DNA of 47,002 bases, from contig CAIRBK010000074.1 in the NCBI GenBank assembly GCA_903876795.1, positions 1-47,002 on the forward strand, written 5' to 3'. How positions within the stretch are numbered: position 1 is the stretch's first letter; the number at the start of each line of letters is the position of its first letter. The notes below the pieces were generated by a model that was not told where the DNA came from, made no database searches, and was given only the letters and a program-made list of their open reading frames with translations. The DNA is from an uncultured Verrucomicrobiota bacterium. Its GTDB lineage: Bacteria; Verrucomicrobiota; Verrucomicrobiia; Opitutales; Opitutaceae. The position numbers and the translations under genes were made by a program. This document shows, piece by piece, positions 6,264 through 40,097 of this stretch.

Positions 6264-6299
6264 TGGTAGATTTTGGTGGAAAACTACCAAAATCTACCA
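6264..6299. promoter_or_regulatory. Perfect 14-bp inverted-repeat operator before the aldolase-rhaEW unit
   Basis: TGGTAGATTTTGGT (6264-6277) is repeated exactly as its reverse complement at 6286-6299, with an 8-base spacer. Each arm is itself a tandem of a 6-base unit at 10-bp spacing (CTACCA at 6284-6289 and 6294-6299). The same arrangement, TGATAGATTATGAT in mqo orientation, occurs at 14523-14541 before mqo-rhaB. It ends only 12 bp before the ATG at 6312, so a bound protein would block initiation. Probable rhamnose-responsive regulator site. Confidence 0.65.
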
Positions 6300-6311
6300 T
6301 TACTTGACCTC

Positions 6312-7076
6312 ATGTCATCCCCTAATGACCCCCTGTCCCGCATGTTGGAGCTGTCTCATCAACTAGGTCGTGAAGAGCGCAAGCTCGCCATTCTTGGCGA
6401 GGGCAACACGTCCGCACGGCTCTCGGCCGACACGTTTGTCGTGAAGGCCTCCGGTTCCAACCTGGCCACGCTCTCCGCCGCCGGCACCGCCGAGTGCCGT
6501 TTTGACAAACTCATCCCGTTGCTCTCCGAGAAATCAATGAGCGACACCGCTATCGACGAGGCGCTCTTCGCCGCCCGTGTCTCGCCCGAATCCAAGAAGC
6601 CTTCCGTCGAGGCCATCTTCCATGCCTATCTGCTGACACTGCCTGGCGTGAACTTCGTCGGCCACACCCACGCGATCACGGTCAACCAGATCCTGTGCTC
6701 CAATCATGCGCGCTCTTTCGCCACCCAACGCCTTTTCCCTGACGAGATCGTGTGTTGCGGCGTTGAAAGTGTCTTCGTGCCCTACACCGATCCGGGATTG
6801 AAGCTCTCCCAGGCGATCAAGGCCGCCACCGAGGACTACATTCAGCGCCTTTCCCGCGCCCCCCGCATCATCCTCCTTGAAAACCACGGCCTCATCGCCT
6901 TGGGCGCCACGCCCGAAGCCGTGCTGGCCGGTTCGCTCATGGCCGCCAAGGCCGCCGAGATCTTCGTGGGTGCTGCCGCCATCAGCGCCGTGCCCCGGTT
7001 CCTGACCGCCGAGCAGGTCGAGCGCATCGCCGGCCGTCCCGACGAGCACTACCGCCAGAAGGCGCTCGGGCTCTGA
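6312..7076 (+). CDS. Class II aldolase/adducin family protein (putative sugar-phosphate aldolase)
   Basis: 254 aa. Class II aldolase features: substrate-phosphate loop LGEGNTSARL (residues ~24-33), zinc-binding histidines in VGHTHA (~119-124), and ENHGLIALGATPEAV with another conserved His (~193). Relatives are fuculose/rhamnulose-phosphate aldolases and related epimerases or decarboxylases. It lies 149 bp upstream of rhaEW in the same direction behind the rhamnose-like operator, so it probably serves the same pathway, although RhaEW already has an aldolase domain. It could handle a related sugar acid or ketose phosphate. The start is uncertain: ATG 6312 lacks a clear ribosome-binding site, and ATG 6345 (MLELSHQLG) is the alternative. 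Confidence 0.8.
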   Translation: MSSPNDPLSRMLELSHQLGREERKLAILGEGNTSARLSADTFVVKASGSNLATLSAAGTAECRFDKLIPLLSEKSMSDTAIDEALFAARVSPESKKPSVEAIFHAYLLTLPGVNFVGHTHAITVNQILCSNHARSFATQRLFPDEIVCCGVESVFVPYTDPGLKLSQAIKAATEDYIQRLSRAPRIILLENHGLIALGATPEAVLAGSLMAAKAAEIFVGAAAISAVPRFLTAEQVERIAGRPDEHYRQKALGL

Positions 7077-7225: not shown

Positions 7226-9418
7226 ATGTCCTCCTACAACTACGTCAACTTCCTCTGGGACGATGCCAAAGCCGCGTCCCTTGATCCCGTCGAGCGTCTC
7301 GTTTACCGCTCCAACCTACTCGGCAGCGACCAGCGCATCACCAACACCGGCGGCGGCAACACCTCCTCCAAGCTCGTGGAGCTCGACCCGCTCACCGGCC
7401 AGAAGGTCGAAGTCCTCTGGGTCAAGGGCTCCGGCGGCGACCTGCGCACCTCCAAACGCGACAACTTCTCTTCGCTCTACCAGGACAAGCTCATCGGCCT
7501 CCAGCAGGTCTATGCCGCCAAGGCCAACAAGGGCATCAAGTCCGAGGCCGAGGACGCGATGGTGAACATGTATTTCCACACCACGTTCAACCTCAACCCC
7601 CGCGCCTCCTCCATCGACACGCCGCTGCACTCCTTCCTGCCCGGCAAGCATGTCGATCACATGCACCCCAACGCGATCATCGCCATCGCCGCCTCCAAGA
7701 ACTGCGAGAAGCTCACCAAGGAAATCTTCGGCGGCGACATGGCCTACGTGCCCTGGATGCGCCCCGGCTTCGAGCTCGGCCTCGCCATGCAGGAGGTCGC
7801 CCGCAAGCAACCCGCCGTCAAAGCCATCATGATGGGCCAGCACGGCTTCATCTCTTGGGATGACAACGACAAGGTCTGCTACACCCGCACCCTCGACCTC
7901 ATCGAGAAGGCCGCCGCCTACATCGAGGCCAAATACGCCGCCAAGGGCGGCGACGCCACGGCCTTCGGCGGACCCAAATACGCCGCCCTTGCCCCGGAGG
8001 CCCGCGCCGCCGCCTTTGCAGCCATCCTCCCCTGGCTCCGCGGCCAGGTCTCCCAGCAGAAGCGTTTCATCGGCACCGTGCAGGACGACGAGAAGATCCT
8101 CCGTTTCGTCAACTCCAAGGACGCCGCCCGCCTCGCCGAACTCGGCACCTCCTGCCCCGACCACTTCCTGCGCACCAAGATCAAGCCCCTCTATGTGGAC
8201 TGGAATCCCCAGTCCGAGGACGCCGCCACGCTCAAGAAGAAGCTCGCCGCCGGTCTCGAACAGTATCGCAAGGACTACGCCGCCTACTACGCCGCCAGCA
8301 AACACGCCAACTCCCCGGCGATGCGCGACCCCAACCCGACGGTCGTCCTCATCCCCGGCCTGGGCATGATCGCCTGGGGCAAGGACAAGTCCGAATCCCG
8401 CGTCACCGCCGAGTTCTACAACTGCGCCGTCGAAGTCATGCGCGGCGCCGAGGCCATCGACACCTACATCTCCCTCCCGCAACAGGAGGCCTTTGACATC
8501 GAATACTGGCTCCTGGAAGAGGCGAAACTCCAGCGCATGCCCGCCGAGAAAGAACTCGCCCGCCAGTCCATCGTCGTGATCGGCGCCGGCTCCGGCATCG
8601 GCAAGGAAACCGCCCACCGCCTCGTCAAAGAAGGCGCCCATATCGTGTGCGTTGACCTCAACGCCGCCGCCGCCGAAGCCACCGCCAAGGAGATCGAGGC
8701 CAAATACGGCGTCGGCATCGGCGTCGCCGGCACCGGCGTGTCCAACTGCGGTCCGGCCATCGGTCTCGCCGCCAACATCACCGACCGCGCCAGCATCCGC
8801 GCGATGCTGGACAAAGTCGCGCTCGCCTACGGCGGCTTCGACTCGATCTGCGTGACCGCCGGCATCTTCGTCCCCTCCGACACCACGGGCCACATCCCCG
8901 ACGACAAGTGGGCGCTCACCTTCAACATCAACGTCACCGGCAGTTACCTGGTCGCCGACGAAGCGTTCAAGACCTGGAAAGAGCAGGGCCTGCGCGGCAA
9001 CCTCGTGCTCACCACGTCGGCCAACGCCGCCGTCTCCAAGAAGGGCTCGCTTGCCTACGACACCTCGAAGGCCGCCGCCAACCACCTCGTGCGTGAACTC
9101 GCCATGGAGCTCAGCCCGTTGGTGCGAGTCAACGGCGTCGCCCCCGCGACGGTCGTGCAGGGTTCCGCGATGTTCCCCCGCGACCGCGTGATCGGTTCGC
9201 TGGCGAAATACGCGATCCCCTACACCGACGACGAGGCGACCGAGAGCCTCGTCAAGAAGCTGGCCCAGTTCTACGCCGACCGCACGCTGACCAAGAGCCC
9301 GATCACCCCGGCCGACCAGGCCGAGGCCTATTTCCTCCTGGTGACCCAGCGTCTCAGCAAGACGACCGGCCAGATCGTCACGGTGGACGGCGGCCTCCAC
9401 GAGGCCTTCCTCCGGTAA
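7226..9418 (+). CDS. rhaEW: Bifunctional rhamnulose-1-phosphate aldolase / L-lactaldehyde dehydrogenase (RhaEW type)
   Basis: 730 aa. Residues ~1-435 form a class II aldolase domain (GGGNTSSKL loop; zinc histidines around HVDHMHP, and GQHGF). Residues ~449-730 form a short-chain dehydrogenase: VIGAGSGIGKETAHRL is the Rossmann glycine motif, YDTSKAA the catalytic YxxxK, and TGQIVTVDGGLHEAF the typical SDR tail. The fusion matches the RhaEW class of rhamnose catabolism, which cleaves L-rhamnulose-1-phosphate to DHAP and L-lactaldehyde and oxidises the latter to L-lactate. It follows the class II aldolase gene across a REP pair and is followed by a REP and a terminator. Assignment of the dehydrogenase substrate rests on the family. 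Confidence 0.9.
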   Translation: MSSYNYVNFLWDDAKAASLDPVERLVYRSNLLGSDQRITNTGGGNTSSKLVELDPLTGQKVEVLWVKGSGGDLRTSKRDNFSSLYQDKLIGLQQVYAAKANKGIKSEAEDAMVNMYFHTTFNLNPRASSIDTPLHSFLPGKHVDHMHPNAIIAIAASKNCEKLTKEIFGGDMAYVPWMRPGFELGLAMQEVARKQPAVKAIMMGQHGFISWDDNDKVCYTRTLDLIEKAAAYIEAKYAAKGGDATAFGGPKYAALAPEARAAAFAAILPWLRGQVSQQKRFIGTVQDDEKILRFVNSKDAARLAELGTSCPDHFLRTKIKPLYVDWNPQSEDAATLKKKLAAGLEQYRKDYAAYYAASKHANSPAMRDPNPTVVLIPGLGMIAWGKDKSESRVTAEFYNCAVEVMRGAEAIDTYISLPQQEAFDIEYWLLEEAKLQRMPAEKELARQSIVVIGAGSGIGKETAHRLVKEGAHIVCVDLNAAAAEATAKEIEAKYGVGIGVAGTGVSNCGPAIGLAANITDRASIRAMLDKVALAYGGFDSICVTAGIFVPSDTTGHIPDDKWALTFNINVTGSYLVADEAFKTWKEQGLRGNLVLTTSANAAVSKKGSLAYDTSKAAANHLVRELAMELSPLVRVNGVAPATVVQGSAMFPRDRVIGSLAKYAIPYTDDEATESLVKKLAQFYADRTLTKSPITPADQAEAYFLLVTQRLSKTTGQIVTVDGGLHEAFLR

Positions 9419-11469: not shown

Positions 11470-12909
11470 TCAGCGTCGCGGCGTGTAGGTGGTCTGTTTG
11501 AGGGTGGGGCCGAAGAGGGCGCGGAAGGCGGCGGTGTTTTTGACCGCCTTAAGGGCGACCAATTGGCTGGCGAGGTTGCCCACGGCGGCACCTTCCAAGG
11601 CAAACGAGACCACGGGCACTCCCGAGGCGTCGGCGGTGGCCTGGCAGAGGAGGCGGTTTTTGGAGCCGCCCCCGACGATAAGGATCCGCTTGAACGTGCG
11701 GCCGGACATTTTCTCGAAGGCGGCTTTGGCATCCGCGTGGCCCTGGCCGAGGGAGTCGCAGATGAGCCGGGTGTAGCCGGCGAGGTTCCTCGGGATCGCG
11801 AGCCGGCGTTTCTTCAACTGGGCGTCGATGGCGGCCTTCATCGACTTCGGATTGGTGAACGCGGGGTCGGTGACGTCGAGGAGCCCGGCGGGCGCGGGGA
11901 GTTTTTCGGCGTCGGCGATGAGGCGGGTCCAGTCGGCGTCGGACTTCGGGCGGGAGGCGAACTCCTTCATGATGCCTTCGAGGAGCCAGAGGCCGATGAC
12001 GTTGGTGAGCGGGCGGTAGCGGCCGTCGCCGATGCGCTCGTTGGAGATGCGGGCGGAGAGGGCCTCGGGCCCCAGGACGGGCTGGTCGCTTTCAAAGCCT
12101 ACGAGTGACCAGGTGCCGGAACTGAGAAAAAGATCCGTGCCGCCGGGGGAGGCGGGCATGGCGTCGTAGGCGCAGGCGGTGTCATGGCCGGGCACGGCGA
12201 CGACCTGGGTGCCGGCGAGCGCGGGTATGTCGCGGACCTTGCCGAGCTTGGTGCCGGCGAGGACGGGTTTGGCGAACCACTGGGCGGGCACGCGGAAGTG
12301 GTCGAGCGCGGCGCGGGACCAGTCGGTTGAGTGGACGTCGAGGAGCTGCGTGGTGCTGGCGATGGTCAGCTCGTTGGCCATCCTGCCCGAGAGCAGGAAA
12401 TTGAAATAGTCGGGCAGGAAGAGGCAGCGCGTGGCCAGATCGGTGATGGCGGGGCAGGAGGCGACGGTCTCCTCGAGTTGCAGGGAGGCGTTGTAGAAGA
12501 CGGCGGGGATGCCGGTGGCCGCGTAGATGCGCTCCAAGGCGGCGCGGGTGTCCCCGAGACGCTTGAGGCCGGGCTGGGTGCGGGCGTCGCGATAGGCGTG
12601 GACCGGAAACACGAGGCGGCCCGCGTCGTTGACGAGGACGTGATCAACGCCCCAGGTGTCCACGCCGACCGAAGCCAGGGTCGCGCCTTTGGGCAGGGCG
12701 GCGACGGCGGCGCGCAGGCCGGCCTGGATTTCGTTCCAGAGGCCCGCGATGTTCCAGTAATCGTGTCCGCCGATGGATTGGAAGGCGTTGGGGAAGCGGT
12801 GGACCTCCTGGAGGGAAAGTCGGGAGTTTTTCCAGGTGCCGAGGATGACACGGCCGCTGGTGGCGCCGAGATCGATGGCGGCGAGGTGGAGGGGCTGGGC
12901 GGAGGGCAT
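11470..12909 (-). CDS. rhaB: Rhamnulokinase (FGGY family)
   Basis: 479 aa, the normal length. It has the FGGY N-terminal ATP-binding segment AAIDLGATSGRVILG (residues ~10-24), GVDTWGVDHVL (substrate region, ~82-92), GHDTACAYDAMPAS (~242) and the phosphate-binding IVGGGSKNRLLCQATAD (~418). AIDLGATSGR together with GVDTWGVD is characteristic of RhaB. It phosphorylates L-rhamnulose to rhamnulose-1-phosphate, the substrate of RhaEW. It lies 36 bp downstream of mqo on the same strand, so the two are probably cotranscribed from a promoter upstream of mqo with the direct-repeat operator. Confidence 0.93.
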   Translation of the reverse strand: MPSAQPLHLAAIDLGATSGRVILGTWKNSRLSLQEVHRFPNAFQSIGGHDYWNIAGLWNEIQAGLRAAVAALPKGATLASVGVDTWGVDHVLVNDAGRLVFPVHAYRDARTQPGLKRLGDTRAALERIYAATGIPAVFYNASLQLEETVASCPAITDLATRCLFLPDYFNFLLSGRMANELTIASTTQLLDVHSTDWSRAALDHFRVPAQWFAKPVLAGTKLGKVRDIPALAGTQVVAVPGHDTACAYDAMPASPGGTDLFLSSGTWSLVGFESDQPVLGPEALSARISNERIGDGRYRPLTNVIGLWLLEGIMKEFASRPKSDADWTRLIADAEKLPAPAGLLDVTDPAFTNPKSMKAAIDAQLKKRRLAIPRNLAGYTRLICDSLGQGHADAKAAFEKMSGRTFKRILIVGGGSKNRLLCQATADASGVPVVSFALEGAAVGNLASQLVALKAVKNTAAFRALFGPTLKQTTYTPRR

Positions 12910-12945: not shown

Positions 12946-14448
12946 TCAGACGAGGCCGAGGAGCTCCGAGGCGCGGCGGGAGTGTTCGGAGAAGAAGGCG
13001 GCGTTTTCCGGTTTCTTGATGTCCACGCCGTAGGTGGGGATCATGGTCTTGAGGCGGGCGCGGCCTTCCTCGGTGGCGACGAGGTGGGGCAGGCACTTTT
13101 CGATGACTTCAAGAACGATGTGGACGCAGACCGAGGCGCCGGGCGACGCGCCGAGCAGGGCCGAGATGGTGCGGTCCTGGTTGGTGATGACTTCGGTGCC
13201 GTAGTGGACGATGCCGGCCTGGCCGTCGGTCTTTTTGATGGCCTGCACGCGGATGCCGCCGTCGATGAGTTTCCAGTCTGTTTTCTTGGCGCCGGGATAG
13301 AAGACGTGAAGGACCTTGAGGCGGTCGTCCATGGATTGCGTGCCCTGTTGGACGAGGTATCTAACGAGGTCGAGGTTGCTTGCGCCGATTTTGAGCAGCG
13401 TGAGCAGGTTGTGGGGTTTCACCGAGCCGGGCAGGTCGAGGACGCTGCCTTTTTTGTGGAGGAACTTGGTGGTCCAGGCGGCGAAGGGGCCGAAGAGGAG
13501 CGTCTTTTTGCCGTCGAGAATGCGAGTGTCGAGGTGGGGGACGGCCATGGTGGGCGCGGCGTCGAGGGGTTGTCCGTAAACCTTGGCCTCGTGCTGGGAG
13601 ACGATGGCGGGGTTGTCGCAGACGAGCCATTGGCCTCCGATGGGGAAGCCGCCCAGGCCCTTGCTTTCGGGGATGCCGGCTTTCTGGAGCAGATGGAGGC
13701 TGCCGCCGCCGGCACCGACGAAGACGAATTTTGCGCGGTTGCGGCGGATCTCGCCGGTGGCGAGGTCGCGGATTTTCACGTCCCAGCCTGCGGGGGTCTT
13801 GTCGAGGTCGATGACGCGGTGGTTGGAGGCGATGCCGCAGCGGTCCTGTTTGCCGAGCCACCCGAGGAGCTTGCGGGAAATCTCGCCGAAGTTCACGTCG
13901 GTGCCGGTGTCCATCTTGGTGGCGGCGATGGGCACGTCGGGACGCTCGGCGGTGAGCAGGGGCGCCCACGAGCCGATGGTGCCGCGATCGGTGGAGAACG
14001 CCATGTCCTTGAAAAAATGGTGGGCCGACATGGCCGAGTGGCGGGCGCGCAGGTAGTCCACCCACTTCGCGCCGTGGACGAAGCTCAGATGGGCGACGGG
14101 ATTGATGAACTCCTTGGGTTTCCCGACCAGGCCCTCGGCCACGGCGGAGGCCCAGAACTGGCGTGACTTCTCGAATTGCTCGAAAATCTTGATGGCGTTG
14201 GACACATCGACGGTGCCGTCGGCGGCCTGGGTGGGCGTGTAGCTGAGTTCGCAGATGCCGGCGTGGCCGGTGCCGGCGTTGTTCCAGCCGTGGGAGGCCT
14301 CTTGCGCGAGCTCCTCGGTGACCTCGTAAACCTGGATCGCGATCTTGGGGTCCAGGCGCTTGAGCAAGGCGCCGAGGTTGGCGGACATGACGCCGCTGCC
14401 GATGAGGATGACGTCAGGATTCTCGATGTGTTGAGACAGGGGCTTCAT
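12946..14448 (-). CDS. mqo: Malate:quinone oxidoreductase family protein
   Basis: 500 aa. The N-terminal FAD Rossmann motif is VILIGSGVMSANLGALL; SHGWNNAGTGHAGICELSYT and FVFVGAGGGSLHLLQKAG are MQO signatures, as is VLLGASPG-like ALLGASPGAS near the C-terminus. MQOs are membrane-associated flavoenzymes that oxidise (S)-malate to oxaloacetate and pass electrons to quinone. Family members can differ in substrate: a staphylococcal MQO paralogue is an L-lactate:quinone oxidoreductase. It sits in an apparent operon with rhamnulokinase and its upstream site resembles that of the aldolase-rhaEW unit. An L-lactate role would complete rhamnose breakdown (inference). Confidence 0.9.
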   Translation of the reverse strand: MKPLSQHIENPDVILIGSGVMSANLGALLKRLDPKIAIQVYEVTEELAQEASHGWNNAGTGHAGICELSYTPTQAADGTVDVSNAIKIFEQFEKSRQFWASAVAEGLVGKPKEFINPVAHLSFVHGAKWVDYLRARHSAMSAHHFFKDMAFSTDRGTIGSWAPLLTAERPDVPIAATKMDTGTDVNFGEISRKLLGWLGKQDRCGIASNHRVIDLDKTPAGWDVKIRDLATGEIRRNRAKFVFVGAGGGSLHLLQKAGIPESKGLGGFPIGGQWLVCDNPAIVSQHEAKVYGQPLDAAPTMAVPHLDTRILDGKKTLLFGPFAAWTTKFLHKKGSVLDLPGSVKPHNLLTLLKIGASNLDLVRYLVQQGTQSMDDRLKVLHVFYPGAKKTDWKLIDGGIRVQAIKKTDGQAGIVHYGTEVITNQDRTISALLGASPGASVCVHIVLEVIEKCLPHLVATEEGRARLKTMIPTYGVDIKKPENAAFFSEHSRRASELLGLV

Positions 14449-14522: not shown

Positions 14523-14541
14523 AATCTATCATAATCTATCA
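14523..14541. promoter_or_regulatory. Direct-repeat operator upstream of mqo-rhaB and the MBL gene
   Basis: AATCTATCA occurs at 14523-14531 and again at 14533-14541, exactly one helical turn apart. In mqo orientation it reads TGATAGATTATGATAGATT. This matches the arm at 6264-6282 except for G/A and A/T exchanges. It is 75 bp upstream of mqo and 25 bp upstream of the divergent MBL gene, so it may control both. Tandem one-turn repeats suit AraC-type regulators, the usual rhamnose sensors. Confidence 0.55.
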
Positions 14542-14565: not shown

Positions 14566-15672
14566 ATGACGATGGCAGGTGCTTGCGAAATCCAGAGGGC
14601 TGGGCTCAGTGGCGGCATGTTTCCCCTGATCTCTTCCACATCGGCCGGCGGCAAGGCCGGGGTTTCGCGCCGCGAGGCGCTGCGTTTGTTGGGTTTGGGT
14701 GGCGCGACCGCGCTGCTGGCCTCGTCCGGCGGATTGCGGGCGGCGGAGTCGGCGGCGGTGGCCGCGGGCGTCAAGCTGAGCGGCCAGCCCGGCTTTTATC
14801 GTTTCAAAATCGGAGCGCATGAGGCCCTGGCCTTCAACGACGGCGGGTTTGCCGCGCCGTTTGACCAATCCCCCTACGCGGCCGGGGTCGCCGATGGCTC
14901 CGCTCAAATCGCCGAGACCCTTAAGAAGGCCTACCTGCCGCCCGACAAGGTTCAGGTGCCGTTCAATGTGTTGCTGGTGCGGATCGGAACGGAGTGGGTG
15001 CTGATCGACACGGGGGCGGGTTCCGCTTTCGGGGCGGCGGCCGGGAAACTTCGCGCGCAACTCGCCGCCGCCGGCTTGGGGCCCGGGCAGATTTCCGCCG
15101 TGCTGATCAGCCATGCCCATGGCGACCACATCGGCGGCCTGCTCGACGACGACACGAAGCAGCCGGTGTTTAAAAACGCCACGCACTACATCGGCCGCCG
15201 TGAGTTTGAATTCTGGATGGGGGCCGATCCCGACCTGGGCCGGCTGCCCCTCGGCGCGGAGGTGGCCAGGCAGATGATCGCCGGCGCCCGATCCGTGCTG
15301 GGTGCGCTCAAGGACAAGTTCCAGCTGGTCGCGCCCGGCGAAAAGCTGATCGACGGACTGGAGATCGTGGACGCGCCGGGTCACACCCCGGGGCATCTGG
15401 CGTTTTTGGTGTCCTCGGGCGACGAGCAACTCCTGCACTTCGTGGACGCGGCCCATCACCATGCGCTTACCTTCGCGCATCCCGAGTGGGCCTTTGCCTA
15501 CGACGCGCAGCCCTCGGCGGCGGCGGCGACCCGCAAGGCGCTGCTGGACCGGGCGGCGGCGGATCGCCTGCGGGTCTTCGGGGCGCACATGCCTTTCCCC
15601 GCGCTCGGTCATGTGAAGCCCATCGCCGGCGGACGCTACGAATACGTGATCGAGCCGTGGTTGCCGGGCTGA
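14566..15672 (+). CDS. MBL fold metallo-hydrolase with Tat signal
   Basis: 368 aa. A twin-arginine-type signal SRREALRLLGLGGATALLA (residues ~34-52) implies export of a folded, metal-loaded enzyme. The metallo-beta-lactamase-fold core has SHAHGDHIGGLL (HxHxDH), a downstream His in DAPGHTPGHLAF and a metal Asp in FVDAAHH. This resembles quorum-quenching lactonase or organophosphate-hydrolase-like exported MBL proteins, but the substrate cannot be told. ATG 14566 is supported by a GCGAGG ribosome-binding site 5 bp upstream. It gives a long n-region; ATG 14617 (MFPLISSTSAGG) is also possible. It is divergent from mqo, and an inverted palindromic element follows 13 bp after its stop. Confidence 0.82.
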   Translation: MTMAGACEIQRAGLSGGMFPLISSTSAGGKAGVSRREALRLLGLGGATALLASSGGLRAAESAAVAAGVKLSGQPGFYRFKIGAHEALAFNDGGFAAPFDQSPYAAGVADGSAQIAETLKKAYLPPDKVQVPFNVLLVRIGTEWVLIDTGAGSAFGAAAGKLRAQLAAAGLGPGQISAVLISHAHGDHIGGLLDDDTKQPVFKNATHYIGRREFEFWMGADPDLGRLPLGAEVARQMIAGARSVLGALKDKFQLVAPGEKLIDGLEIVDAPGHTPGHLAFLVSSGDEQLLHFVDAAHHHALTFAHPEWAFAYDAQPSAAAATRKALLDRAAADRLRVFGAHMPFPALGHVKPIAGGRYEYVIEPWLPG

Positions 15673-36721: not shown

Positions 36722-36896
36722 AGGGGGTGTGTCTGAAATCACTCAGATCGTGGCACTCCGCGAGTGAGAGGAGAAGCCGGCTGGGCCGGCGTTGACCTCG
36801 ACGGCACGACCCGTCGGGTCGCCTCCGTCTCGGTCGTCTTGGCCGAGCCCGCTTCTCCTCTCACGCCGAACCGATTTTTTCCGAAATACGCCCTAG
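36722..36896 (+). repeat. Full copy D of the ~175-bp palindromic element
   Basis: Begins AGGGGGTGTGTCTGAAATC and ends CGAAATACGCCCTAG. The interior GTGAGAGGAGAAGCCGGCTG faces CCGAGCCCGCTTCTCCTCTC; the centre ACGACCCGTCGGGTCG is a perfect palindrome. The terminal CTA supplies, on the minus strand, the TAG stop of the nucleotidase-RTX gene. Confidence 0.85.
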
Positions 36897-39352
36897 AGCG
36901 AGAAATCGCGGGCGGGCTTGACCTGGGCGGCGGTGAGGCCGCGCAAGGTGGCGATGGTGCGGCCCGCGCCGCGACCGGCATCGCCATCGACGTCGAGCTG
37001 GATGGCGACGCCGCCTATGGTATCGACGATCTTGATATAGCCGTCGGTGACGGCGGCGTTGCCGGTGGGGGCGCCCACGTTGGTGAGCAAGGTGGCGAGG
37101 CTCAGCTTGTCGGCGTAGGGCGTGAAGTCGGTGATCGTGTCGCCGATCTCGCGCAGGGAGTTGTAGACAAACTTGTCGCCGCCCGCGCCGCCGGTAAGGA
37201 CATCGGCGCCGAGACCACCGGTGATGGTATTGTCGTTGGCGTCGCCGCCCAGGGTGTCGCGGCCACTGGTGCCGACAGCGGGCGCGCCCTCGACCGGGGC
37301 GATTGAGACCGCGAGGTCGACGAGGCGGCCGTAGCGGTCGTAGGGATTCTCGACTCCGTAGGCCTGGCTGGTGATGGCGGGACCATCCGCAGCACTGGAG
37401 CGGCCGAGACCACCGAGATTTTTCTCAGTCGCGATGAAGTCGGCCAGTGCCTCCTGGTAGGTGATGGTGTTGACGTTGTTTTCAAAAGCGACGTTGTTGG
37501 CCGCGAAGGGGTAACCGTCACCGCCGGCGGCGGTGAAGTCGATGGTGGCGAAGCTGAAGGCCGGGGCGGAGATGTTTACGACGCCGTCCGAGACAAGCAC
37601 GGTGCCATTGTCCATGACGACCTCGCGGATGCGGCTGCCGGTGCCGACGCGGGTGGCTTCGGTGCCGGAACTCGAACGGGCCGTCCGAGTGGTGTCATAA
37701 ACCACGCGGATGCCGGAGACCTGGGCGAAGCGGCCCTGGGCTGAGCCGGCGGGGGTGGACGCGGCGACCGAGTGCTCGAGCAGGTCCTTGAGCTGGGCGG
37801 CGGTCATGGCGGGAGCGCGCTTCACGAGGTTGGTGAAGGGCAGCACGTTGAAGGTGTCTCCCACCGAGACATCGCGGGCCGTGGCGGGAGAGGTGGGGCC
37901 GGCAACGGTGGTGCGGATGCCGCCGCCGTTTTGAATGGCCACCTCGGCGGCGCCGGCAAAGCGCATGGCGTCGGCGACGAGGTTGCCGAGGTTGGTCTCG
38001 GCATTGCGCACCCCGATGGCGGAGTAAACGGTGCCGCTCGGGGCGCTGACGCCGCGGTCGCCATTCAGGCGCACGGCGGTCTGGCCGACGATCTGGGCGT
38101 TGAGGTCGTTGATGAAATTTTGGACGGGGGTGATGACCGAGTTTTGCAGGGCGACGTTGCCGGAGACCGCGTCTGCATCGGCGTTGTAGGTGATGGCGGT
38201 GACTCCGGACGTGCCTCCGCCGTTCGTGATGGTGGAGGTGAGACCCGATACGCGCAGCATGCGGGTGGAGTCGATGGCGGTGACCAGGCCGGTGGTGTCG
38301 TTGATCGTGAGGTTCACCTCTCCCACGTAGCGGTTTCCGAAGTGGCTGGTCACGATGGGAGTGGGGGTGCCGTCAACATCGTTGTTGTAGACCGGATGGG
38401 TGTTGAACGTGGCCGAGACACCGCCGTTGATCAGCAGGTCGTCGGTGTCGGTCATCAATTCATGGCCGCCGCCGGAGACGACAAGGTCCACGTTGTTGAG
38501 GCCGGGCACGAGGATGTTCCGTTCGTTGGCGGCGTTTTGCAGATGGCTCATGACGACGATGACGGTGACGCCCTCGTTGTTGCGCAGTCGGTCGATCTCG
38601 GCCTGCACGAAGGGCAGAAGAGCCTGGAGGTTTTGCGTCTCGGAGTTGGTGGAGCTGAAACCGGCGGTCATGTTAACCGGACTTGGAGAGGAGATGGTGG
38701 GCAGGAGCGGGGTGGTTACGCCGATGATGCCGACTTTTTTGCCTCCGGGGGTGGTGATGATCTTGGAGGAGGCGACGTCACCGGAGGCCTTTAGCGCGGC
38801 GAAGGCCGGTGAGGCGTCGAAATTCAGATTGATTGAAAGGTAGGTGGTTTCCGAGACCTTGACAAAGCGGGCGGCATCGGCGGCGCCCTGATCGAACTCG
38901 TGGTTGCCGAACACGGCGGCATCAAAGCCGATCTCGCGCAGAGCGATGGCGTCGTAGAAGTCCTGGCCGCTGTCGGTGTAGGCGTTGGCCAGATTGGTGT
39001 AACTGGCGGTGAAGCGAGGGCCGGGCAGGAACGCGTCACCGGCATTGAGTTTGATGACGAAGCGATTGGCGGAGGCGGCGGTGGTTTCGGCGTTGTCGAT
39101 CACGGCGGCGAGACGGTCCACGCCACCGTAATAGGAGATGATCTGGAAGGCGCTCGCCACGGCATTGCTCGTCGAGCTCGTTGGCGTGTTGCGCAGGTTG
39201 CCCTGGGCGGAGAGCAGCCAGGATTCCTGGTCGCCGACGTGAAGGATGGTGAGGCCCTCGGCCTGCAAGGCGGCGGGGGTGAAGGCAAGGGTGGCGATGA
39301 AAGCGGCGAGGCCGAGGGCGGGCCGCTGGAAAAAGGCGGGAAAAGATTTCAT
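36893..39352 (-). CDS. Secreted 5'-nucleotidase/metallophosphatase with C-terminal RTX repeats
   Basis: 819 aa. A signal-like N-terminus (MKSFPAFFQRPALGLAAFIA, cleavage near LQAEG) leads into a calcineurin-like phosphatase domain (~30-330) with GDAFLPG, FGNHEFDQGAAD and VVMSHLQNAANE. The usual first metal motif DxH is instead GDQES, and the later GHTH-type motif reads SGGGHE, so metal use may differ. A 5'-nucleotidase C-terminal domain follows (~430-690; NLVADAMRF, QNGGGIRTTV). Residues ~715-770 hold hemolysin-type calcium repeats (GGDANDNTITGGLGADVLTG), normally a type I secretion mark, which is odd beside a Sec-like signal. The stop codon comes from repeat copy D, so the original C-terminus may be altered. 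The start is given to within a base. Confidence 0.85.
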   Translation of the reverse strand: MKSFPAFFQRPALGLAAFIATLAFTPAALQAEGLTILHVGDQESWLLSAQGNLRNTPTSSTSNAVASAFQIISYYGGVDRLAAVIDNAETTAASANRFVIKLNAGDAFLPGPRFTASYTNLANAYTDSGQDFYDAIALREIGFDAAVFGNHEFDQGAADAARFVKVSETTYLSINLNFDASPAFAALKASGDVASSKIITTPGGKKVGIIGVTTPLLPTISSPSPVNMTAGFSSTNSETQNLQALLPFVQAEIDRLRNNEGVTVIVVMSHLQNAANERNILVPGLNNVDLVVSGGGHELMTDTDDLLINGGVSATFNTHPVYNNDVDGTPTPIVTSHFGNRYVGEVNLTINDTTGLVTAIDSTRMLRVSGLTSTITNGGGTSGVTAITYNADADAVSGNVALQNSVITPVQNFINDLNAQIVGQTAVRLNGDRGVSAPSGTVYSAIGVRNAETNLGNLVADAMRFAGAAEVAIQNGGGIRTTVAGPTSPATARDVSVGDTFNVLPFTNLVKRAPAMTAAQLKDLLEHSVAASTPAGSAQGRFAQVSGIRVVYDTTRTARSSSGTEATRVGTGSRIREVVMDNGTVLVSDGVVNISAPAFSFATIDFTAAGGDGYPFAANNVAFENNVNTITYQEALADFIATEKNLGGLGRSSAADGPAITSQAYGVENPYDRYGRLVDLAVSIAPVEGAPAVGTSGRDTLGGDANDNTITGGLGADVLTGGAGGDKFVYNSLREIGDTITDFTPYADKLSLATLLTNVGAPTGNAAVTDGYIKIVDTIGGVAIQLDVDGDAGRGAGRTIATLRGLTAAQVKPARDFSL

Positions 39353-39395
39353 GGGAAGGGGCTGGCGGGATTCAAGGGTTCGGAGCGGGGGGAAA

Positions 39396-40097
39396 TCAGG
39401 CGGAGCGGCGACGGCGCATCGCGACGAGACCAAGGGCCAAGGAGCCGACGAGCGCGGCGTAGGTGGACGGCTCGGGAATCGCTGTGAGCGTGACGTTGTC
39501 GATCAAAACGGCCGAGGTGACGTCAAAGCTCGCGGTATCGACCACGCCGAGGCTGAGTTTAACGGTGCCGGTCGAGGTGAAGACCTGAACGTAGGTTTTC
39601 AGACCCGTCTCAGTGCCGTAGCTGGTGGAAGCAGTGATCGCGTCACTGGAATCGGCGAAAGAGAACACGTTGCCATCAATGCCCACAAAGGCGTGGTCAA
39701 AAGTGCCGGTTTCGTTGGTGAAGAAGTTGTAGCTGAAGCTCAGTTCGTAGAGACCGGCCGGAAGGCTGAAGGTCTGGCTGAGGCCGGAGCCTTCATTGGC
39801 GGGATCCAGCCCGAGATTCGCGTCGCCGATGGCGAGACCGGTGCTCTCCTCCAGCCCCAGGGCCACGTTGGCCTCGAGTGGCGAAGTGCCGGAGACGTTG
39901 AAGTTGGCAGTATCGTCAGCACCACCGTTGGACGCGGTGGTCAGGAAAGCACCTCCGGATTGGGAGATGGCATCACCGACAGGGTTCCAGTTGGCGAGAC
40001 CACTGCCGAAGTCGGCATTGACGGGCTGGGAATAAGCGTGGCTTGCGAGGATAATTGCGGCCGTCGCGGAGCAGATGAAACGGAGAGTGCAAAACAT
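39396..40097 (-). CDS. PEP-CTERM sorting domain protein
   Basis: 233 aa. Signal peptide (IICSATAAIILASHAYS-like, cleavage after YSQ). The mature part begins NADFGSGLANWNPVGDAISQ and has the jelly-roll pattern of DUF642/choice-of-anchor-type secreted proteins (LPAGLYELSFSYNFFTN, GVVDTASFDVTSAVLIDNV). The C-terminus PEPSTYAALVGSLALGLVAM followed by RRRR is the PEP-CTERM tripartite signal that the exosortase/archaeosortase system recognises for envelope or exopolysaccharide attachment. No exosortase is in the window. It lies 43 bp upstream of the nucleotidase gene in the same direction and may share its transcript. Confidence 0.88.
   Translation of the reverse strand: MFCTLRFICSATAAIILASHAYSQPVNADFGSGLANWNPVGDAISQSGGAFLTTASNGGADDTANFNVSGTSPLEANVALGLEESTGLAIGDANLGLDPANEGSGLSQTFSLPAGLYELSFSYNFFTNETGTFDHAFVGIDGNVFSFADSSDAITASTSYGTETGLKTYVQVFTSTGTVKLSLGVVDTASFDVTSAVLIDNVTLTAIPEPSTYAALVGSLALGLVAMRRRRSA

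Follow-up and report, generated by a model that had tools for sequence, protein, structure and literature searches.

The window analysed here is an entire contig (C74; 47,002 nucleotides) of the 3.57-Mb, 98% complete genome of an uncultured member of the Opitutaceae (Verrucomicrobiota). On its minus strand lies an open reading frame of 500 amino acids with an ATG start (12946-14448), whose product scores 584.1 bits against the malate dehydrogenase (quinone) model TIGR01320 (cut-off 549.95) and thus belongs to the MQO family in the broad sense; we predict it to be an FAD-dependent L-lactate:quinone oxidoreductase. It is followed after 36 bp, on the same strand, by a gene for a rhamnulokinase-like kinase (11470-12909), the top NCBIfam match of which, the rhamnulokinase model TIGR02627, reaches 377.7 bits and stays below the cut-off of 527.95, so that the name rhaB is based on best similarity. 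An operator-like tandem repeat with 10-bp spacing, TGATAGATTATGATAGATT (14523-14541, minus strand), lies 74 bp ahead of the mqo start codon. The preliminary description had placed an MQO homologue just ahead of rhaB and behind a rhamnose-type operator, in a locus without a lactate dehydrogenase, and each of these points was borne out.

Two kilobases past the distal end of rhaB, the plus strand carries a second unit, composed of a stand-alone class II aldolase-like gene (6313-7076) and rhaEW (7226-9418). The product of rhaEW exceeds the cut-offs of the models for bifunctional rhamnulose-1-phosphate aldolase/L-lactaldehyde dehydrogenase, and RhaEW homologues are reported to yield L-lactate and DHAP (PMC3870299). 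Ahead of this unit lies a related operator, an inverted repeat with 14-bp perfect arms (6264-6299, assigned to neither strand), which the tandem repeat at mqo resembles. The start of the aldolase gene was set at the ATG at 6313 (the ORF program begins at a TTG at 6273, within the operator); the protein shows a weak relationship to the aldolase domain found in RhaEW-type proteins. Divergent from mqo is a gene for an MBL-fold hydrolase (14566-15672, plus strand) that resembles AidB-like lactonases below the cut-off. The same hydrolase is found downstream of lutA-lutB in two relatives (L117, 1-1084, minus strand; L130, 9541-10548, plus strand), and it is possibly a further member of a lactate module. 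At 36893-39433 (minus strand) the window encodes a 5'-nucleotidase-like body with C-terminal glycine-rich repeats that by eye are of the calcium-binding kind.

With at most one mismatch, TRGATTNTGRTAGATT occurs at exactly two sites genome-wide, both at rha units, compared with 0 matches for the reversed pattern and 0.09 expected from base composition; by this shared operator, mqo is placed with the aldolase/rhaEW unit in a putative rhamnose regulon. A scan of 120 loci from relatives and comparison genomes with a 19-base consensus (up to 4 mismatches) returned 43 sites, of which 24 lie within 500 bp ahead of a gene of the rha locus; for the first 40 loci, the 25 sites obtained stand against 0-3 for ten shuffled patterns. 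Directly ahead of mqo a site was present in just 8 loci of relatives (four of them from other genomes of the same genus), which counts against lactate as the substrate. In L117, from a genome with no mqo match (G134), and in L130, from a genome with no rha-type mqo (G118), the operator lies between divergent lutA and rhaB. No match to a DeoR-type regulator was found within the window. A regulator of the DeoR family stands beside the rha cassettes of relatives (L116, 15422-16246, and seven further loci, among them L084, L087, L088 and L122), and the 10-bp repeat spacing of such a regulator would fit the operator.

The MQO-family protein and its active site

The AlphaFold2 model of the window protein has a mean pLDDT of 84.2, with low confidence at residues 327-334 and 408-416, and its best structural match is the mycobacterial MQO 9dm1 (TM 0.89 by query length, 44% identity). 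The nearest named relative is a protein from a Rariglobus sp. MAG (89%). A quick maximum-likelihood analysis of 117 proteins (midpoint root; the program gave long-branch warnings) placed 91 non-canonical sequences, including the window protein, on one side of a branch with a support of 100, and the Mqo proteins of Escherichia coli and Staphylococcus aureus, the genome's own paralogue and four Staphylococcus Lqo sequences on the other. The 91 sequences fall into groups of 8, 10 and 73, the branching order of which under one node is not resolved by the tree, and for this reason a claim that the 83 sequences of the latter two form a single sister group was dropped. A third MQO group, represented by twelve loci from as many genomes, is 52-57% identical, carries GGPHLD in place of the MAVPHLD stretch and lies away from rha genes. 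The window protein neither groups with characterised Mqo nor carries all of the residues that are invariant in canonical Mqo.

Residues were compared between the 83 sequences of the group (10 + 73) and 22 canonical Mqo sequences. A302, I399 and S69 are present in 83 of 83 group members, where all 22 canonical sequences have S, Q and N, respectively; position 300 is mostly T in the group in place of P (21 of 22 canonical sequences), and position 325 mostly W in place of F (20 of 22). Staphylococcus Lqo has T302, K399 and V325, and keeps N69 and P300. Malate has a distal carboxylate, which lactate lacks. In L-2-hydroxyglutarate dehydrogenase, Arg393 and the Leu299 main chain are reported to bind the distal carboxylate, and Ser88, Tyr289, His302 and His92 the reacting end (PMC10726252). 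By alignment, Arg393 and Leu299 correspond to R400 and M301 of the window protein, and Tyr289, His302 and His92 to Y291, H305 and H62; the group-specific residues T300, A302 and I399 flank M301 and R400, the aligned contacts of the distal carboxylate. The reacting end would therefore be unchanged and the changed residues would adjoin the contacts of the distal carboxylate, an after-the-fact pattern read from printed alignments that were numbered by hand against the residue numbers of PMC10726252, i.e., from aligned positions and not from structural distances. Group-specific residues occupy 3 of the 4 flanks of the distal contacts (P = 0.0002) and 3 of the 12 flanks of all contacts (P = 0.007), both values having been computed after the pattern was noticed. 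The conservation of R400 in the group was counted against lactate as the substrate; R400 is also kept in Staphylococcus Lqo, and thus does not decide between lactate and malate.

Exclusivity of rha-type mqo and LutAB

The preliminary description had asked whether the genome holds a second mqo or an ordinary malate dehydrogenase, and both are present. A canonical mqo, by its score of 758 bits on TIGR01320, lies among unrelated genes on contig C97 (49% identity to the window protein), and an NAD-malate dehydrogenase is encoded on contig C96 (PRK05442, 480 bits, cut-off 271), so that the window gene is not the sole mqo or mdh of the genome. The one protein with an Ldh_1_N domain in the genome is the malate dehydrogenase. 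Neither FMN_dh (LldD, lactate oxidase) nor the LUD domain (LutB/LutC) was found in the genome, in searches whose positive controls matched in 14 of 14 and 8 of 14 named genomes, respectively. RhaA (PF06134) was not found in the genome either, despite the presence of rhaB, rhaEW and the operator, and we regard this as a real gap in the pathway. The six AP_endonuc_2 (PF01261) proteins of the genome have open frames of 277-331 amino acids, and none was assigned as a RhaI-type isomerase. A protein of 536-541 amino acids with a weak match to Fucose_iso_C (26.3 bits, cut-off 29.3) recurs in the rha loci of relatives (eleven loci, often without a visible rhaA) and may be an alternative rhamnose isomerase.

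The same 200 genomes of the family were searched for mqo, RhaEW, FMN_dh and LUD, an mqo being taken as rha-type at an identity of at least 60%; the weakest short mqo hits were excluded, the match tables were transcribed by hand, and the choices were fixed before counting. A rha-type mqo was found in 67 genomes, LUD/LutAB in 94 and both in none, with an mqo fragment of the LUD-positive genome G182 (60% identity) set aside as not rha-type; were it counted, the overlap would be 1, not 0. A check made afterwards showed 93% identity between this fragment and the neighbouring MQO group, compared with about 62% to the best match from elsewhere. Thirteen genera hold both states, and the genus of the source is one of them (6 genomes with mqo, 3 with LUD). 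When mqo was shuffled within genera, 14.4 overlaps were expected and the minimum in 20,000 runs was 6; the exact probability of none is 4e-13, which is a guide and not a strict test, because the genomes within a genus are related. As controls, LUD is present in 16 of 26 genomes whose mqo is canonical or otherwise of lower similarity, and in 12 of the 13 genomes of the third, neighbouring MQO group, the thirteenth of which also carries a rha-type mqo.

FMN_dh is only weakly avoided: of the 51 RhaEW genomes with a rha-type mqo, 13 also hold it (P = 0.04). It was counted from about 90 bits upwards, which gave 60 genomes; the cut-off of the family is passed in 84 genomes, and 123 reach E <= 0.001. 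RhaEW was counted at an identity of at least 60%, which gave 121 genomes (a weaker match of some kind occurs in 199 of the 200). All three enzymes are missing from six of these 121 genomes, of which three are 91-95% complete. Conversely, RhaEW of at least 60% identity is absent from 16 of the 67 mqo genomes, several of which keep rhaB-rhaA-mqo (L086, L090, L094 and L099).

Linkage was counted where the gene shares a contig with rhaEW: a distance of at most 20 kb was seen for rha-type mqo in 27 of 29 genomes, for LUD in 21 of 23, for LldD-type FMN_dh in 7 of 13 and for other mqo in 0 of 1. The enzymes replace each other in the same slot of the cassette. Within one genus (g38), the order deoR-rhaEW-rhaB-rhaA-mqo (L084, L087 and L088; the cassette of L087 also with an ald fragment) is matched by deoR-ald-rhaEW-rhaB-rhaA-lutA-lutB in L122. 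The genus of the source includes ald-rhaEW-rhaB-lutA-lutB (L116) and rhaA-lutA-lutB (L118); three loci of genus g41 (L119-L121) read rhaA-rhaEW-rhaB-lutA-lutB, and four of genus g48 (L124-L127) rhaEW-kinase-lldD, with a kinase 34-37% identical to rhaB. A set of 20 loci was picked mainly for lut or lldD near rhaEW, so the cassettes drawn from it serve as illustrations, and the linkage counts are taken from the 200-genome survey. In all three loci examined for it, LutB scores above the cut-off of TIGR00273; a small third protein carries the LUD domain, and the LldD-like protein has the L-lactate dehydrogenase model PRK11197 as its best match, below the cut-off. In some RhaEW-bearing Actinomycetales and Rhodobacterales, lldD and lldEFG are reported as members of rhamnose regulons (PMC3870299).

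Among 65 loci of the family with an mqo of at least 60% identity, rhaB lies within 300 bp in 41 (co-directional in 40 of the 41), and some rha gene within 5 kb in 57; in five of the remaining eight the contig ends within 350 bp. In the cultured relative Cephaloticoccus capnophilus CV41 (L235), too, mqo is a neighbour of rhaB. Family loci with an mqo of 57% identity or less have a rha gene in 0 of 16 cases. In loci from other families or classes with an mqo of at least 59%, a rha gene is present in 7 of 16, mostly rhaEW with a distant kinase, and none lies within 5 kb in the other 9. A Pfam scan of 10 neighbours of members outside rha loci revealed no lactate permease or other lactate gene. These members outside rha loci, the mqo genomes without RhaEW, the RhaEW genomes without any of the enzymes, the weak avoidance of FMN_dh and the RhaA gap of the source genome count against lactate as the substrate, as does the score of the protein above the cut-off of TIGR01320 and far below that of the Lqo model NF040844.

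Predicted function and competing explanations

The gene occupies the place that known lactate-oxidising enzymes hold in relatives, and its product therefore very probably oxidises rhamnose-derived L-lactate, as far as genomes can tell. We assign a probability of roughly 0.8 to the explanation that it encodes an FAD-containing L-lactate:quinone oxidoreductase of the MQO family that serves rhamnose breakdown and was recruited independently of Staphylococcus Lqo. Rhamnose carbon would leave RhaEW as DHAP and L-lactate, the window enzyme would oxidise the L-lactate to pyruvate, and the electrons would presumably pass to the membrane quinone pool. The enzyme would be made together with RhaB, probably upon induction by rhamnose, behind the operator common to the aldolase/rhaEW unit. 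The same activity had been proposed in the preliminary description; its operon logic is supported by the exclusivity, the slot exchange, the shared operator, the separate mqo and mdh and the searches that found no FMN_dh or LUD protein in the genome, and its appeal to the lactate-oxidising MQO paralogue of S. aureus does not hold in the sense of orthology (see below).

It appears unlikely that the protein is a conventional malate:quinone oxidoreductase whose regulation is tied to rhamnose use so as to serve the TCA cycle, or gluconeogenesis, on DHAP and C3 acids. The protein passes TIGR01320 and conserves the catalytic residues and R400, and Mqo and NAD-malate dehydrogenase are reported to coexist in some bacteria, e.g., Campylobacter jejuni (PMC9908594). 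However, a canonical mqo and an NAD-malate dehydrogenase are already at hand in this genome, the group as a whole departs from canonical Mqo at positions where the latter is invariant, and malate oxidation offers no reason why the gene should exclude LutAB or exchange places with lutAB and lldD.

A slightly slimmer chance is left to a dual or broad L-2-hydroxyacid:quinone oxidoreductase that accepts L-lactate and L-malate (or related acids) about equally, with lactate being relevant only during growth on rhamnose. The retention of R400 and the members outside rha loci, beside unrelated genes, would agree with such an enzyme, but the replacement of Q399 and S302 in every one of the 83 sequences would rather suggest that specificity has shifted for good than that it has widened. 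A substrate unrelated to lactate, be it another 2-hydroxy acid or a by-product of the breakdown of deoxysugars, is very improbable, since LutAB and LldD, both names for L-lactate oxidation, replace mqo in the same cassettes, even though the conserved neighbouring MBL-fold hydrolase is unexplained and lactate is a predicted substrate.

Returning to L-lactate oxidation, we also consider it probable, with somewhat less confidence than for the window gene itself, that the MQO family gave rise to L-lactate:quinone oxidoreductases at least twice, once as Staphylococcus Lqo and once as a group found in Verrucomicrobiota and in Planctomycetota, in which the pocket for the distal carboxylate would have been reshaped and the catalytic end retained. 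In Opitutaceae that degrade rhamnose, LutABC would usually be exchanged for members of the latter group, and a large set of proteins automatically annotated as malate dehydrogenase (quinone) would be misnamed. In that case, a respiratory step that does not depend on NAD would complete rhamnose breakdown to pyruvate in a major group of polysaccharide degraders, and a single flavoprotein family with two lactate enzymes of independent origin would offer a natural test of how malate/lactate specificity is set. The pattern of mutual exclusivity yields a sharp prediction about the activity of the enzyme. No link of MQO with rhamnose or with the use of lactate in Verrucomicrobiota was announced in the titles and abstract openings of the literature searched.

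Comparison with known enzymes

With canonical Mqo (E. coli b2210; 9dm1) the window protein shares the fold, the FAD domain, the NAGTGH motif with the presumed catalytic His62, and Y291, H305 and R400. It differs in belonging to its own group in the tree, in the replacements S302A, Q399I and N69S found throughout that group (83 of 83), and in the rhamnose-gene context, which Mqo lacks. The nearest other solved fold is L-2-hydroxyglutarate dehydrogenase (LhgD/dmL2HGDH; 8w75, 8w78 and 8w7f; TM about 0.63), the active site of which can be aligned although identity is about 17%; this enzyme is reportedly inactive on L-lactate and L-malate (PMC10726252).

Staphylococcus Lqo (NF040844; PMC5312079, PMC11742581) is of the same superfamily and matches the window protein in the proposed reaction, and positions 302, 325 and 399 are altered in both, to different letters. 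In the tree, however, Lqo groups with the Mqo of Bacillota, whereas the window protein is found elsewhere. On NF040844 (cut-off 915) the window protein scores 488 bits, i.e., less than the canonical proteins (652 for an S. aureus Mqo, 589 for the canonical paralogue in the source genome and 555 for E. coli Mqo), whereas Lqo of S. epidermidis reaches 1014. Orthology with Lqo is thereby ruled out, and the S. aureus enzyme lends no support by kinship.

LutABC/LldEFG and LldD belong to unrelated families (iron-sulfur and LUD proteins, and an FMN enzyme, respectively), but they fill the same slot and take the same step, from L-lactate to pyruvate, behind RhaEW, and in two relatives lutAB shares the operator.
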